From IMG/VR virus record IMGVR_UViG_3300042568_000281, positions 1 through 25,897 of that record: 25,897 nucleotides of DNA; one strand, written 5' to 3'. How positions within the stretch are numbered: position 1 is the stretch's first letter; every line of letters starts with the position of its first letter. A program made the translations under genes and the position numbers. The notes beneath the pieces were generated by a model that worked only from the letters and a program-made list of their open reading frames with translations, was not told where the DNA came from and searched no databases. The DNA is from a virus. Shown here in pieces: positions 3,494-20,558 of this stretch.

Positions 3494-3882
3494 TAGATCA
3501 CCCCCCAGCCGGTGTTGTTCGATACCATGGTGATGCTCTGGTACTGGACCGGCAGGAGCTGCGTCGCGGCGCCGTCGATGAATTCGCCGCCGGCGGCGGC
3601 CACGGTAATGACGCCGGTGCCGCTGTTCTTCACGGTGAAGATCTGGCCCCGAATGCCCGTCGCCGTGGGCAGCGTCACGGTGAACGTATTGGCCGTGCAG
3701 TCGACGACGCAGTCGTTCGCCGTGACCGTGTAGGTGCCGCTGACCGGGGTGTACTTGACCTTCAAGGCCCCGCCGAGGGCGGGCTGGATCAGCGTCAGGA
3801 AGTCGCCCATCAGGCGCTGGATGCCGTTGATGGCGACGACGCCGTTCTTCTGGCAGGTCAACAAATCATCAAGCGAAGCCAT
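3493..3882 (-). CDS. Small phage structural protein
   Basis: A 129-residue protein beginning MASLDDLLTCQKNGVVAIN, an N-terminus I recall from virion proteins of related podophages. The remainder is beta-rich: VSGTYTVTANDCVVDCTANT, TVTLPTATGIRGQIFTVKN and GEFIDGAATQLL resemble a tail-fibre or tailspike repeat module. I chose ATG 3882 because AAGGAGG ends six bases upstream; a TTG two codons earlier would leave no spacer. The gene is coupled to the next gene by TAATG. A homing endonuclease gene lies between it and the nozzle gene on the other strand. Confidence 0.85.
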   Translation of the reverse strand: MASLDDLLTCQKNGVVAINGIQRLMGDFLTLIQPALGGALKVKYTPVSGTYTVTANDCVVDCTANTFTVTLPTATGIRGQIFTVKNSGTGVITVAAAGGEFIDGAATQLLPVQYQSITMVSNNTGWGVI

Positions 3883-3915
3883 TCCCAACCTCCTTGCGGC
3901 AACTCAGAAAATTGG

Positions 3916-3933
3916 GTATGCCATACATATGTA
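3916..3933. repeat. Two adjacent palindromes at the homing endonuclease start
   Basis: GTATG-C-CATAC (3916-3926) is followed by and overlaps TACATATGTA (3924-3933), a perfect 10-base palindrome that contains the ATG start of the HNH-AP2 gene. They could be an operator, part of a translation-control hairpin or an insertion-site signature. Which one is not decidable here. Confidence 0.6.
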
Positions 3934-4420
3934 CAGAAAAATCTCTATCGCCAGACTGCATGCCCTGCTTCGGTATGACGCCGCGACAGGCGCTCTGTAT
4001 TGGCACCGCACCTCGCAATGGGTGAAAGCAGGGAGGCGCGCAGGGACGCTGTCGCTGGGTTATCGGGTCATAAGTATCGACGGGTGTGTTTTGCGCGCAC
4101 ACCGCATCGTGTGGGCCATGGCGCATGGCCGTTGGCCTCGTAAGGGCCTTGATCATATCAACGGCCGCCGCGACGACAACCGCATAGAGAATTTGCGTGA
4201 AGCTACGCAGAGTGAAAACATGGCCAATGTGCCGCGCGCGAGAAACAACAAGTCGGGAGCCAAGGGCGTGTCGTGGCATGCAGCGGGCCAGAAATGGCAG
4301 GCGCACATACAAAAGAACCGAAAGCACCGATATCTCGGCCTTTTTGACACCGTAGAAGAGGCGGCCGCTGCGTATCAAGAGGCCGCGCAACGACTGCATG
4401 GGGTCTTCGCGAAGCACTAG
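3929..4420 (+). CDS. HNH homing endonuclease with AP2 domain
   Basis: A 163-residue protein and the only convincing plus-strand gene. Residues ~5-92 form an HNH_3-type module: AHRIVWAMAHGRWP followed by LDHINGRRDDNRIENLREAT, with the catalytic and metal-binding His and Asn residues intact (H58, D75-H76, N78, N84, N88). Residues ~110-160 (GVSWHAAGQKWQAHI, RYLGLFDTVEEAAAAY) are an AP2-type DNA-binding domain. This architecture is a known free-standing homing endonuclease class. I chose ATG 3929 because the frame upstream is the shadow of the neighbouring gene. No strong Shine-Dalgarno sequence is visible, and any promoter (TTGCGG, 17 bases, TATGCC) is poor. Its stop overlaps the convergent nozzle gene stop in CTAG. 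It is likely a selfish insertion. Confidence 0.93.
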   Translation: MYRKISIARLHALLRYDAATGALYWHRTSQWVKAGRRAGTLSLGYRVISIDGCVLRAHRIVWAMAHGRWPRKGLDHINGRRDDNRIENLREATQSENMANVPRARNNKSGAKGVSWHAAGQKWQAHIQKNRKHRYLGLFDTVEEAAAAYQEAAQRLHGVFAKH

Positions 4421-16878: not shown

Positions 16879-17145
16879 TCAGCAGCCCTTGACCTTATGG
16901 CCCGTGGGCGGAGTGCCCGAGGCCGCAGAGGAGAGCGGGTTCATGTTGGAACCCGCTCGGCCGCCGCTCTTGCGCGGCTTGCGCCCGGCATGCATGGCGG
17001 CTGCCTTGCCGGACATCTTGACGGTCTTGCCCCCGCGCTTGCGCTCCCGGGCCGCCGACAGGATCGGTTCGGCGTCGGCGGTACGCGACGGCGGGCTGAC
17101 GTCGGCGGTGACCACGCCGCCGCTCTTACGATGACGAGCCTTCAT
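16879..17145 (-). CDS. Small basic KxGG protein
   Basis: An 88-residue protein beginning MKARHRKSGGVVTADVS. It carries repeated basic-GG motifs (RKSGGVV, KRGGKTV, RKSGGRAG) and the segment KMSGKAAAMHAGRKPRKSGG, similar to parts of the large KxGG protein at 22818-24182 (for example GPAAMRADRKQRKAGGRS). I chose ATG 17145, with TAAGGAG six bases before it; a longer frame begins upstream in the previous gene. It is probably disordered and may bind nucleic acid or other virion components. It is closed by the terminator just downstream. Function unknown. Confidence 0.82.
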   Translation of the reverse strand: MKARHRKSGGVVTADVSPPSRTADAEPILSAARERKRGGKTVKMSGKAAAMHAGRKPRKSGGRAGSNMNPLSSAASGTPPTGHKVKGC

Positions 17146-17155
17146 GGCTTGCTCC

Positions 17156-18184
17156 TTACGTCGGGTTGACGGCGATGCCGGTGGTGGCTGCCGTAGCGGC
17201 GGCACCATCGACGTAGATCTGGCCCCGAGAGGTGGCGTCGGTGCCGAACTCGGTGATGCCGACGAGGGTGCAGTCCTTCATCAGCAGCAGGCCGCCAGCC
17301 GAGGCCGGGAGCGTCGCGAGGGCGCTCATGGTCGTCGAGGTGGAGGCCACGTTGTTGATGAACGTGCAGCGGTCGAACTTCTGCCAGCGGTCGATGCCGG
17401 CAGCGGCCGCCACGATGATGCCCAGAGGCGTCGTGGCGCTCGTCTGGAAGACGAAGTTGCACTCCCTGAACGTGTTCCGCGTGGTGCCGCCCGAGAACTG
17501 CAGGGTGGCATTCGCCACCGTGCGCGCCACGGTATCGAGGCCGAGTTCGCAGCCGTCGAAGGTGTGCTCGCCGGTGCCGCTGATCAGCAGCGAACGGCTG
17601 GTGGTCGCCTGCGCCGAAGCCGCGTCGCCCGCGCCACCGAACTGGACGTTCGAGTAGTAGTTGCGGCCGCCGCTGTCGGTCCACGCGATCTGGCTGGCAC
17701 CGCCGGTCGAGAAACCGTTGTACACCGAGAAGTTCGCGAAGATGCACCCCGAGGCCGACACCGTCACGAAGTTGCCCGACCCGAAGGTCGCCATCGTGTA
17801 GGTTCCCGACGGAGGGGCGATGCGTGCGCGCTGGCTGACCATGGTCGGGGCGCACATGCCAACGATGTGGCACGCGTCCTTCGCCCAGACGAGCGTGCCG
17901 GCGGTAGCCGCCGGCGTCAGGACCTGCGCGTTTGCCAGCGACAGGCGCTGGGTGGAGGCTGTCGTGCCGTCGCTGACGATCACGGCCACGTCGTTCTGGC
18001 CGGCCGTCATCTTGTACTGCGCTCCGTAGAGCGTCTGGAGGGGGCTGTCCGCCGATCCGGTGTTGCCGTCGCTTCCGTTGACGTAGTCGACGAAGTAGAC
18101 GTTGCCGGTGGTCAGAGGAAGACCGGACATCCCCATGGTGGGGATGCCGGCGACTTCCAGCCCGCTCAGGTGAGTGATACCCAT
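17156..18184 (-). CDS. Beta-helix virion protein
   Basis: A 342-residue protein starting at ATG 18184, MGITHLSGLEVAGIPTMGMS. The N-terminus is a recognisable phage pattern. VYFVDYVNGSDGNTGSADSPLQTLYGA is a signature of right-handed parallel beta-helix proteins (N-G-S-D-x-N-x-G...S-P-x-x-T). Later rungs such as HTFDGCELGLDTVAR, NTFRECNFVFQTS and QKFDRCTFINNV repeat the helix pattern. It follows the major capsid and endonuclease genes and may be a capsid decoration or fibre. An upstream in-frame start at 18283 would lie in the endonuclease gene, so I prefer 18184, which overlaps the micro-ORF stop as TGATG and has GGGGGGTG before it. Confidence 0.87.
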   Translation of the reverse strand: MGITHLSGLEVAGIPTMGMSGLPLTTGNVYFVDYVNGSDGNTGSADSPLQTLYGAQYKMTAGQNDVAVIVSDGTTASTQRLSLANAQVLTPAATAGTLVWAKDACHIVGMCAPTMVSQRARIAPPSGTYTMATFGSGNFVTVSASGCIFANFSVYNGFSTGGASQIAWTDSGGRNYYSNVQFGGAGDAASAQATTSRSLLISGTGEHTFDGCELGLDTVARTVANATLQFSGGTTRNTFRECNFVFQTSATTPLGIIVAAAAGIDRWQKFDRCTFINNVASTSTTMSALATLPASAGGLLLMKDCTLVGITEFGTDATSRGQIYVDGAAATAATTGIAVNPT

Positions 18185-18216
18185 CAGGCACCCCCCGTTA
18201 CTTTGAAACAAGCCAT
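18184..18216 (-). CDS. Possible 10-codon leader ORF
   Basis: ATG 18216 opens a 10-codon frame encoding MACFKVTGGA and ends in TGATG, overlapping the start of the beta-helix gene. Its ATG overlaps the endonuclease stop as TAATG, with GAAAGGAAC upstream. It could be a leader that couples translation, or a relic of the gene start before the endonuclease gene arrived. It is too short to be sure. Confidence 0.35.
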   Translation of the reverse strand: MACFKVTGGA

Positions 18217-18911
18217 TAGCTGTTCCTTTCGTCAGAAGTAGAGGAAGAGAGTTCCGTGTGCCGTTCAAGATACCGAATGGCACTCGTCAAGATTTCGGGG
18301 CTGTCTTTCATCTTGCCGATGGCGGTATTGCAGTCGAAACAGAGAAGTCCGCGCACCTTGCCGGTAGCGTGATCGTGGTCGACCGCGAGAGCCTTCACCT
18401 TGCCATTACGCTTGTGCGTTTCCGGCTGCTTGCAGATGGCGCAAGCACCATCCTGAGCGGCGAGCATCAGCTCGTAGTCTTCCAGCGAAAGCCCGAAAGA
18501 AGCCCGCAACGAGCGGGCCTTCTCCAGACGCGGCGACGCACGGCGATAGGCACGGTGATACGCAAGCTTGCCTTCACGTGTCGTATGGTCGAATTCGCCG
18601 CCGATGCCGTTGAAGAGCGTCAAGTTCTCGTAACGGCAATCCGAAGGATCGCCGTTCTTGAACCGGACGCGCCTCTCGGGCCACCTGCCAGTCACGTAGA
18701 ACCAAGCCAGACGACTATCGGTGATGTCGATGTTGTCTAGACGAATGCAGCGGTAACCGCGTGCGTCGTTGCGGCCACCGGCGCGGGCGCCGGGTTTTAC
18801 ATTCTTGGCGGGCCTGATCTTCCACGTGAACACGCCCGACGCTGGATTGTAGTCCAGCGCGTTGCGTATCTGTTCGTGGGAGAGGTTTGGCACTTTCGCT
18901 TTACCCTTCAT
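18216..18911 (-). CDS. Endonuclease VII-type nuclease fused to a degenerate HNH module
   Basis: A 231-residue protein. The C-terminal part (about 150-220) has C157-x2-C160, HDHATGKVRGLLC with H179, D180, H181 and C191-x2-C194, followed by N195, the zinc and active-site layout of recombination endonuclease VII (T4 gp49 type). Residues ~12-100 resemble the HNH_3 module of the plus-strand endonuclease (DYNPASGVFTW, RLAWFYVTGRWP, NGDPSDCRYENL), but the catalytic DHxN block reads RFKN and the preceding His is Ser. This half is probably a DNA-binding relic. The gene sits between the capsid and beta-helix genes and looks like an inserted homing-type gene. GGAGGAG lies only three bases before ATG 18911, at the foot of a hairpin. 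Confidence 0.93.
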   Translation of the reverse strand: MKGKAKVPNLSHEQIRNALDYNPASGVFTWKIRPAKNVKPGARAGGRNDARGYRCIRLDNIDITDSRLAWFYVTGRWPERRVRFKNGDPSDCRYENLTLFNGIGGEFDHTTREGKLAYHRAYRRASPRLEKARSLRASFGLSLEDYELMLAAQDGACAICKQPETHKRNGKVKALAVDHDHATGKVRGLLCFDCNTAIGKMKDSPEILTSAIRYLERHTELSSSTSDERNS

Positions 18912-18919
18912 CTGCTCCT

Positions 18920-18947
18920 CCAGTGCGGGGTATGAACCCTACACTGG
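18920..18947 (-). promoter_or_regulatory. Hairpin touching the endonuclease Shine-Dalgarno
   Basis: On the minus strand CCAGTG (18947-18942) pairs with CACTGG (18925-18920), and inside it GGGT pairs with ACCC around loop TCAT. The last two G of the 3' arm belong to the Shine-Dalgarno sequence GGAGGAG (18921-18915). The hairpin could reduce translation of the endonuclease. Similar control hairpins are known for some phage T4 homing endonuclease genes. Confidence 0.55.
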
Positions 18948-19000
18948 AACGGCGGCTGTCTGCAAACCTGATTGGAAAGAGTCCTGAAAACCCTTTAAAA

Positions 19001-19915
19001 TCAAGCCGTTGGAAAACTCCCGAAGATTGAACGAAAATTGTAGTAGCCGAACGAGTACCGTTCGTAGCCCTTCACCAGCAGGTTGTCGGTGACGAAGTCC
19101 ACCTGCATGTCCGTCTCGAACTTGATGCGCTCCATGTAGGAGAGCCCGTCGATGTTGGTCATCAGGAACCACGAGTAGGCCGACGTCAGGAAGTCGTTGA
19201 CCATGTAGCCCTCGGGCAGGCCGCCCGCGGTGGTCAGGATCGCGTTGACGTCGTTGTCGGCCGTGCCGGGGCGCAGCTCGGTCTTGGTCAGTCGGATGGC
19301 GACCGGCTCCAGCTGCGGCGGCACGATGAGCTTCCGGGCGCGGGCGAAGACCTTGAGGCCTGCCTGATCCTTGAAGTTCGTCCGAACCGCGATCATCGAG
19401 TTCAGCAGCGACGCCTCGTTCAGGTCGACCTGAATGGCCGGCTTGTTGGCGACCGTGCCGCCGTCGATGGGATGGTCGGTGGCGCAGAGCGCCTTGCCGT
19501 CGCCGCCGATGGAGGCGTTGTAGGTGGTCGCCGTGTTCAGGATGTTCGCGCCGTAGATCTCCTTGGTCTGCTGGAAGCTCTCGATCAGACCGAGGTTCGA
19601 CGGGTGGAACTGCGTCTTGTACAGGTTGTCGTCGATGGCCTTGCGAGTGATCGCGTAGCCGAGGGCGATTTCCGTGTGCTCCTGATTGTAGACGAAGCGT
19701 TCGCCGGCGCCGTTGTCGAAGGCAGTCTGGCCGCCTTCGGTCTTCAGCTGGGCGAGCCCGAGGTACCGCATCTCGGCGGTGCGTTCGAGCGCCATCTTCG
19801 AATCGTGCTTGGTGAAGATCTTGTCGTACTGAGACGGGATCATCTCGTACTTGCCCTCGACGCCACGCAGGCCGGGGAGGAGCAAGTCCTTGATGGCGGA
19901 AAGATTAACAGCCAT
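19001..19915 (-). CDS. Major capsid protein (Mu gpT-like)
   Basis: A 304-residue protein. LLLPGLRGVEGKYEMIPSQY, MALERTAEMRYLGLAQLKTEG, QEHTEIALGYAITRKAIDDN and the C-terminal KGYERYSFGYYNFRSIFGS match the Mu gpT-like major head subunit family, with the HK97 fold. This is the main shell protein. Length is normal. AAGGAG, which overlaps the stop of the preceding gene, lies nine bases before ATG 19915. The gene follows the scaffold and decoration-like genes, as expected. No processing site can be recognised from sequence alone. The gene is followed by an inserted endonuclease instead of directly by the next structural gene. Confidence 0.94.
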   Translation of the reverse strand: MAVNLSAIKDLLLPGLRGVEGKYEMIPSQYDKIFTKHDSKMALERTAEMRYLGLAQLKTEGGQTAFDNGAGERFVYNQEHTEIALGYAITRKAIDDNLYKTQFHPSNLGLIESFQQTKEIYGANILNTATTYNASIGGDGKALCATDHPIDGGTVANKPAIQVDLNEASLLNSMIAVRTNFKDQAGLKVFARARKLIVPPQLEPVAIRLTKTELRPGTADNDVNAILTTAGGLPEGYMVNDFLTSAYSWFLMTNIDGLSYMERIKFETDMQVDFVTDNLLVKGYERYSFGYYNFRSIFGSFPTA

Positions 19916-19928
19916 TGGTCATTACTCC

Positions 19929-20558
19929 TTAGCTGATGCCGGTGGGGCCGGCGCCGTTCGAGCGCAGCCATTCGTTGTTGAAGCCGACGATGACCTTGTT
20001 GTAGGCCGTGGTCGGGTCAGCACCGGGGCCGCCCGGCGGGGCAGCGATCAGGCCACGCACGATGAACGGGAAGGTCACCGTAGTGTTGGCGGTGTCGAGG
20101 TAGGCGCCGGACTGGCCGGTGCTGGAGTTGCCCGTGCCGATGGCGAACTGGGCGTACTGTCCGACCTTCGAGCTGGTGACCGTGGTCAGCGTGCCCGTGA
20201 TGTTGAAGGTCGTGCTGGCGCCCATGACCTCAAACTGCGCGTTCGGGTCGTCGATGACGTAGGCTTCGACGTCACCCGAGGCATCGCTGCCGGGCCAGTA
20301 GCTGTTCCACACGGTGCGCTTCTGCGACACCGAGGTGTACTTGCAGCCGACGAAGATGCCGGCGAGCGTGGTGGTGCCGGCCGCGGCCTGCGTGATGTAG
20401 CCATTCGCGGTCGAGATGACCGGCATGACCGGGTCGCCGGTGTAGACAGGGGTGGTGTCGGTGGACGCAATCAGACGGGTCGACTGCGCGAAAGTCGGCG
20501 CACCGCCCGAGCCGCCGTAGTACTGGCGGAAACCGAAAGGCGTATTCGTGTTCGCCAT
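19929..20558 (-). CDS. Small virion protein next to the capsid (decoration candidate)
   Basis: A 209-residue protein starting MANTNTPFGFRQYYGGSGG. AAAGGAG lies eight bases upstream of ATG 20558, which decides this start over an earlier in-frame ATG at 20636. The N-terminus is a pattern I recall from structural proteins encoded beside the capsid gene (NTPFGFRPV-like). The rest is beta-rich: TDTTPVYTGDPVMPVIST, GIFVGCKYTSVSQKRTVW, DVEAYVIDDPNAQFEVMG. It is first in the second head block, directly upstream of the major capsid gene, so it may be a decoration or cement protein. That role is inferred from position. Confidence 0.85.
   Translation of the reverse strand: MANTNTPFGFRQYYGGSGGAPTFAQSTRLIASTDTTPVYTGDPVMPVISTANGYITQAAAGTTTLAGIFVGCKYTSVSQKRTVWNSYWPGSDASGDVEAYVIDDPNAQFEVMGASTTFNITGTLTTVTSSKVGQYAQFAIGTGNSSTGQSGAYLDTANTTVTFPFIVRGLIAAPPGGPGADPTTAYNKVIVGFNNEWLRSNGAGPTGIS

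Follow-up and report, generated by a model that had tools for sequence, protein, structure and literature searches.

The founder of the DHHRN, or endonuclease VII (EndoVII), family of homing endonucleases is F-CphI (S-PM2p177), and within the wider group of EndoVII proteins the nuclease domain is placed C-terminally in the endonuclease clade and N-terminally in resolvases (PMC6083498). Two further groups of described enzymes are relevant here: the T4-type homing endonucleases I-TevI, SegB and Aeh1 MobE, which are regulated by hairpins that sequester the ribosome-binding site (RBS) (PMC2988022), and the domain-swapping T5orf172 homing nucleases, in which exchange occurs between the DNA-binding and nuclease parts (PMC10448857). 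The gene described here lies in a viral DNA of 25,897 nucleotides (IMG/VR record IMGVR_UViG_3300042568_000281), the whole of which is referred to as the window. We consider it probable that this gene is a mobile, free-standing homing endonuclease gene, the product of which cuts with an EndoVII domain and has kept a dead HNH module, most likely for target binding.

Gene and domain organization

The open reading frame 18216-18911(-) begins with ATG, preceded by the Shine-Dalgarno sequence GGAGGAG, and its 231-residue product is composed of a degenerate HNH_3 module at residues ~8-103 and an intact EndoVII domain at residues 141-218 (Table 1). Profile searches, a check proposed in an earlier note made from the sequence alone, place both halves above their curated Pfam cut-offs: Endonuclease_7 (PF02945) matches residues 135-216 (E 4e-26) and HNH_3 matches residues 67-100 (E 3e-9; 36.9 bits versus a cut-off of 24.8), while the corresponding PHROG matches are the HNH family phrog_99 at residues 5-99 (E 1e-22) and endonuclease VII families at residues ~118-221. 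The EndoVII residues CxxC(157,160), DHDH(178-181), R187, CxxC(191,194) and N195 are all intact, in agreement with the claim of the earlier note that the C-terminal half keeps the zinc and HDH layout of endonuclease VII, and across 22 relatives these motif residues are invariant, with the exception of the second Asp of DHDH. The C-terminal position of the EndoVII half, with a separate N-terminal part ahead of it, is the layout of a DHHRN homing endonuclease.

The model of the full-length protein has a pLDDT of 83.9 and a pTM of 0.49, and does not fix the placement of the HNH_3 and EndoVII domains relative to each other. In structure comparison its C-terminal half matches T4 EndoVII (Z 6.4, ~35% identity). 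A Foldseek search with the whole-protein model returned EndoVII matches only and none for the N-terminal module, the fold match of which was obtained with VIA-align.

Table 1. Positions of the features of the endonuclease locus in the window.
Feature	Position	Strand	Basis or remark
Probable free-standing homing endonuclease gene, dead HNH_3 module and EndoVII nuclease, 231 aa	18216..18911	-	ORF, Pfam, PHROG, model
Degenerate HNH_3 module, residues 8-103, predicted targeting domain	18603..18890	-	phrog_99, separate model, dN/dS
Relic active site V82-R83-F84-K85-N86-G87...N96-L97 (live modules VDHxNG...NL)	18621..18668	-	Module alignment
Linker (residues 104-140), which recombines in relatives	18492..18602	-	Nucleotide comparison of L009 with L017/L018
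Endonuclease VII catalytic domain, residues 141-218	18258..18491	-	PF02945, DHHRN residues, T4 EndoVII match
RNA hairpin, 3' arm holding the Shine-Dalgarno sequence (18915-18921)	18918..18949	-	Folding z, covariation
Major capsid protein gene, presumed target	19001..19915	-	phrog_371; upstream neighbor in close relatives
Last 12 capsid codons, recoded; predicted co-converted and immune target site	19004..19039	-	Comparison with L024
Structural gene that follows; its ATG (18184) is where homology with the empty-site phage restarts	17156..18184	-	

The N-terminal module and its relic active site

Modeled alone, the N-terminal module (pLDDT 88.8, pTM 0.81) finds its best aligned PDB chain in the nuclease domain of I-HmuI (1u3e; Z 7.4-7.6, 86 residues, 2.9 Å), the only fold match after this being I-PpoI (Z 3.3-4.4), and a profile search with the module also finds 1u3e (E 1.6e-4). 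A Z below 8 is modest alone, but profile and fold agree, and the module as modeled is of the HNH_3/I-HmuI nuclease fold, in agreement with the resemblance to HNH_3 reported in the earlier note, which had suggested the comparison of a predicted structure with HNH_3 domains. The active site of I-HmuI, in its established numbering and residue roles, comprises D74, H75, N87 and N96. D74 and H75 align to R83 and F84 of the window protein and the metal ligand N96 aligns to G105, such that R83, F84 and G105 stand where an HNH nuclease has its catalytic Asp-His pair and metal-binding Asn. N87 of I-HmuI is retained as N96, and R93 is retained as well. The catalytic pair reported lost from the letters of the gene (RFKN for DHxN) is indeed missing; the Ser that had been read as a replacement of the catalytic His, by contrast, is S66, at the position of the His of the AHR motif, which is non-catalytic; of the 35 modules that retain Asp-His, 3 are without this residue as well.

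Loss of the active site is the rule in fused modules. In a 48-row HNH_3 alignment, the Asp-His pair is found in 35/35 unfused and 0/13 fused modules, the latter carrying R/K/T/Q and F/Y at the pair (mostly R/K for D and F/Y for H), and most of them have likewise lost the residue equivalent to I-HmuI N96; L017 and L018 retain an Asn close to the metal-ligand position. When all such ORFs in the collected loci are considered (31 distinct HNH_3-EndoVII fusions that cover the site and 73 unfused HNH_3 ORFs), Asp-His is kept in none of the fusions and the His is missing in 30, the sole fusion with a His at the site (L110) lacking the Asp, whereas the catalytic His is present in 73/73 unfused ORFs (Fisher P 3e-25), a contrast that is inflated because the unfused set was fetched by a live query and some of the fusions by a query that included the relic motif. 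A scan with EndoVII patterns only still gave no live HNH_3 module among its fusions. The dN/dS values of the N-terminal module in unsaturated pairs are mostly 0.04-0.2 (range 0.04-0.24) and similar to those of the EndoVII half; the dead module is thus under purifying selection as strong as that on the nuclease, from which it follows that the module is used for something. In a tree computed from 94 columns a single branch (91/74, present in 94% of bootstraps) sets the dead modules apart from the rest, which is compatible with a single loss of the active site, without proving it.

Insertion site and recoding of the capsid tail

In the window the endonuclease gene follows the major capsid gene at a distance of 93 nt, and the distance is similar in relatives (~20); wherever the locus of a close relative includes the capsid gene, this is the upstream neighbor. 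Empty sites are found in L024 and L026, and the endonuclease gene is thus optional between conserved genes. L024 is 97.5% identical to the window upstream, and its capsid gene and the next gene are set apart by only a short gap; homology restarts exactly at the ATG of the latter, with downstream identity down to 87%. An endonuclease borne by a group I intron was considered and rejected, as a search of 17000-20000 against Rfam gave nothing at E<=1 and the capsid frame ends before the gene.

Relative to L024, silent changes are present in 10 of the last 12 capsid codons and in 7 of the other 292 (P 8e-13), the recoded tract being confined to ~36 nt before the capsid stop and silent throughout. 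AGY encodes the Ser of GSFPT in 11/15 capsid tails of gene-carrying loci versus 4/52 of gene-less ones (P 1e-6, relatedness ignored), and a similar tail bias is seen across gene-carrying capsid backgrounds of 80-94% identity. This recoding would fit co-conversion together with an immune target. It is not universal, since the Ser codon is the ordinary TCG in L102 and L105, both of which carry the gene, and since L016 (with the gene) and L035 (without it) have identical capsid tails. The leader of the next gene in L035 matches the end of the L016 endonuclease gene, a clean gain or loss.

Further features were observed around the insertion site. Nine loci (L030, L032, L042, L043, L061, L064, L081, L084 and L092) contain a conserved pseudoknot-like element between the capsid gene and the next gene, the pairs of which (CTAGG..CCTAG, ATCACACTG..CAGTGTGAT and CTGCAC..GTGCAGGAGG) would hide the Shine-Dalgarno sequence of the next gene, and C-terminal tails of endonucleases, for example TGLADSAQT (L008, L014, L099, L102, L106), resemble the translated element, as if the gene runs into it. 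A second EndoVII-type ORF is present ~2 kb downstream of the first in L011 (5379-5849) and L012 (5927-6397).

The N-terminal half and its presumed target

A comparison of L009 with L017/L018, phages that are 95-100% identical around the locus and have identical EndoVII halves, reveals differences in the N-terminal module (dS 0.43-0.54), in the linker (33-47% nucleotide identity) and in the capsid tail (~80%), and constitutes one natural experiment that appears to tie the N-terminal half to the target. Over 19 gene-carrying loci, the relation between capsid-tail and N-module distances, with capsid-body distance removed, was not significant (partial r 0.10, p 0.09). Among the loci matched in a search with a distant relative, those that have the same capsid family in the flank mostly show the EndoVII ORF starting ~15-150 nt past the capsid end, a position that is kept even at 30-42% capsid identity and with unrelated N-terminal modules. 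The alternative modules behind capsid genes include a zinc knuckle plus HPLY...DVG module; the idea that the HPLY/DVG module is another degenerate HNH was dropped because it had no profile match. In uncultured phages, the 3' end of the capsid gene emerges as a candidate hot spot of homing.

Leader hairpin and expression

The leader folds into a hairpin in the window (z -3.2) and in every close relative (z -4.7 to -8.3 in seven of them), with six pairs changed on both sides and a covariation score reached by 0/500 shuffles, and it is also found in L260 and L261, both of which are outside the set that defined it. Most relatives have a TTGACA-like box together with a sigma-70-like -10 at the top of the hairpin, and the mean promoter score of the family is 9.3/12 versus 7.6 in shuffles; the window hairpin has no recognizable promoter (best 7/12, p 0.59). 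The hairpin would hide the RBS on transcripts that read through from the capsid gene, while transcripts that start at the -10 atop the hairpin in most relatives would be free of the 5' arm and would be translated, which amounts to a putative expression switch. A promoter-like hairpin of the same type follows the capsid gene of L085 without an endonuclease ORF and may be what a lost gene left behind, and a similar hairpin in L050 precedes a short, possibly truncated ORF.

History of the fusion

In two fusions, L281 and L283, EndoVII is preceded by a dead HNH_3 module, an AP2-like segment and one more module, in this order, and their genes sit behind capsid genes 58% and 65% identical, respectively. 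The HNH-AP2 family phrog_99 spans residues 2-168 of L283 (E 1e-45), where the Pfam AP2 match is below threshold (16 versus 33 bits); in L281 there is no Pfam AP2 match. By their sequences, both look like an entire HNH_3-AP2 homing nuclease that lost cutting and gained EndoVII. Together with the death of the module in all fusions found and its maintenance by selection, these candidate intermediates lend support to the earlier suggestion that a homing nuclease had its catalytic part replaced and kept the old module; the order of replacement, with HNH death after the arrival of EndoVII as against recruitment of an already dead module, is the part that we infer. The locus would accordingly represent a case in which catalysis has passed to a second nuclease domain, with the first retained, probably as the targeting part. 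Tentatively, and as a reading that we find plausible without quite calling it probable, the fusion may be a catalytic transplant, in which the HNH site was rebuilt as a DNA-grip domain after fusion to EndoVII, with Arg/Lys in place of the metal ligand and Phe/Tyr in place of the general base, and with the capsid 3' end as a standing docking site that EndoVII has reached repeatedly with exchangeable targeting modules.

Other arrangements of these domains were also seen. In a further clade (L109-L115, L120-L125), a dead HNH_3 module (RxRNGDxxDLRWxNLY) is combined with an F-CphI-like zinc ribbon and EndoVII, and a capsid gene of the window's family is absent from the available flanks. In L339 (Salmonella phage Si3), EndoVII-type and live HNH_3-AP2 nuclease genes (364-846, 1610-2125) are located near a DNA polymerase gene in pieces, and could fuse. 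The window itself has a second putative homing nuclease at 3734-4420 (+), on the strand opposite to the structural genes; this is an HNH_3-AP2 protein with Asp-His intact, the HNH module of which is ~35% identical to the dead module of 18216-18911(-).

Proposed mechanism and alternatives

In the proposed mechanism, a homing endonuclease gene has entered the interval between the gene for the major capsid protein and the structural gene that follows it. The former HNH nuclease domain of its product, with catalysis lost, would most likely have been retained for binding to the homing site, namely conserved DNA that encodes the capsid C-terminus YYN(F/W)RSI(F/Y/W)GSFPT, and cleavage is predicted to be the task of the C-terminal EndoVII domain. 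In a co-infecting phage that lacks the gene, the 3' end of the capsid gene would be cut, and repair would copy the gene and a short flanking tract into the recipient, where the copied tract would silently recode the site and thereby confer immunity.

Several other explanations have to be weighed. That the HNH_3 module serves folding, dimerization or autorepression, and not target binding, would agree with tail and N-module distances that are uncorrelated family-wide and with the ability of T4 homing enzymes to double as repressors (PMC2988022); it is unlikely in view of the different N-terminal modules carried by EndoVII nucleases at the same position, which fit exchangeable targeting parts, and of the joint change of N-module and capsid tail between L009 and L017/L018. 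Residual catalysis in this module, for example nicking via other residues, might be suspected from the kept N96 and R93 and from the Asn of L017/L018, but with general base and metal ligands gone, the His almost universally missing from the fusions, and conserved R/K and F/Y replacements that are ill-suited to a metal site, we regard it as extremely improbable.

The capsid tail could also have been recoded by ordinary recombination of a divergent capsid end, and not by homing, given that phage genomes are mosaic and that identity to L024 also falls downstream of the gene. This is rather improbable for a silent tract that ends so close to the capsid stop, and with a similar bias recurring in divergent gene-carrying backgrounds. 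A Holliday-junction resolvase of the T4 gp49 type with an accessory domain, and not a homing enzyme, is suggested by the level of identity between the EndoVII domain and T4 EndoVII; however, only the catalytic part matches gp49, in a C-terminal position and with no full-length match, the C-terminal placement is that of the endonuclease clade and not of resolvases (PMC6083498), and the gene is optional, with empty sites, always behind the capsid gene and with a recoded flank, all of which makes a resolvase highly improbable. For the preferred reading, a homing endonuclease with a retained HNH_3 module, L024 (empty) and the window (occupied) are paired sites suited to a cleavage comparison, and if the dead module is kept for targeting, the fusion would offer a natural example on which to model the linking of nucleases to binding modules.

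Comparison with described homing endonucleases

Among deposited phage records, none covers at least 80% of the fused protein, and the best matches are separate genes or EndoVII alone; two of the records that pass 80% for L283 were inspected and set aside, H127 consisting of separate annotated genes and H134 being an ordinary live HNH_3-AP2 ORF. In the literature found, the coverage of which is incomplete, an HNH_3-EndoVII fusion is not described.

As in I-TevI, SegB and MobE, the RBS is located in the 3' arm of a hairpin, with internal promoter geometry in most relatives of the window, but the promoter in these relatives is sigma-70-like and not T4 late, and in the window it is unrecognizable. 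The swapped part of the T5orf172 nucleases is a dedicated DNA-binding region, whereas that of the window protein is a former nuclease domain. The HNH_3-AP2 phage homing endonucleases (phrog_99; prototype I-HmuI), to which the ORF at 3734-4420 (+) belongs, share the domain of the N-terminal module; in contrast to these, the window module is without Asp-His and is followed by EndoVII in place of AP2, an AP2-like part being retained among fusions only in L281 and L283. The closest described enzyme is F-CphI, with which the window protein has in common a complete set of DHHRN residues in a C-terminal EndoVII domain (41% identity over 95 aa) and a free-standing gene beside a presumed target gene. 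The N-terminus of F-CphI is a short zinc ribbon with no HNH_3 match, in contrast to the dead HNH_3 module of the window protein, and its gene is found by psbA and not behind a capsid gene. Judged by residues and context, the window protein is a DHHRN-type enzyme with a different putative targeting part.
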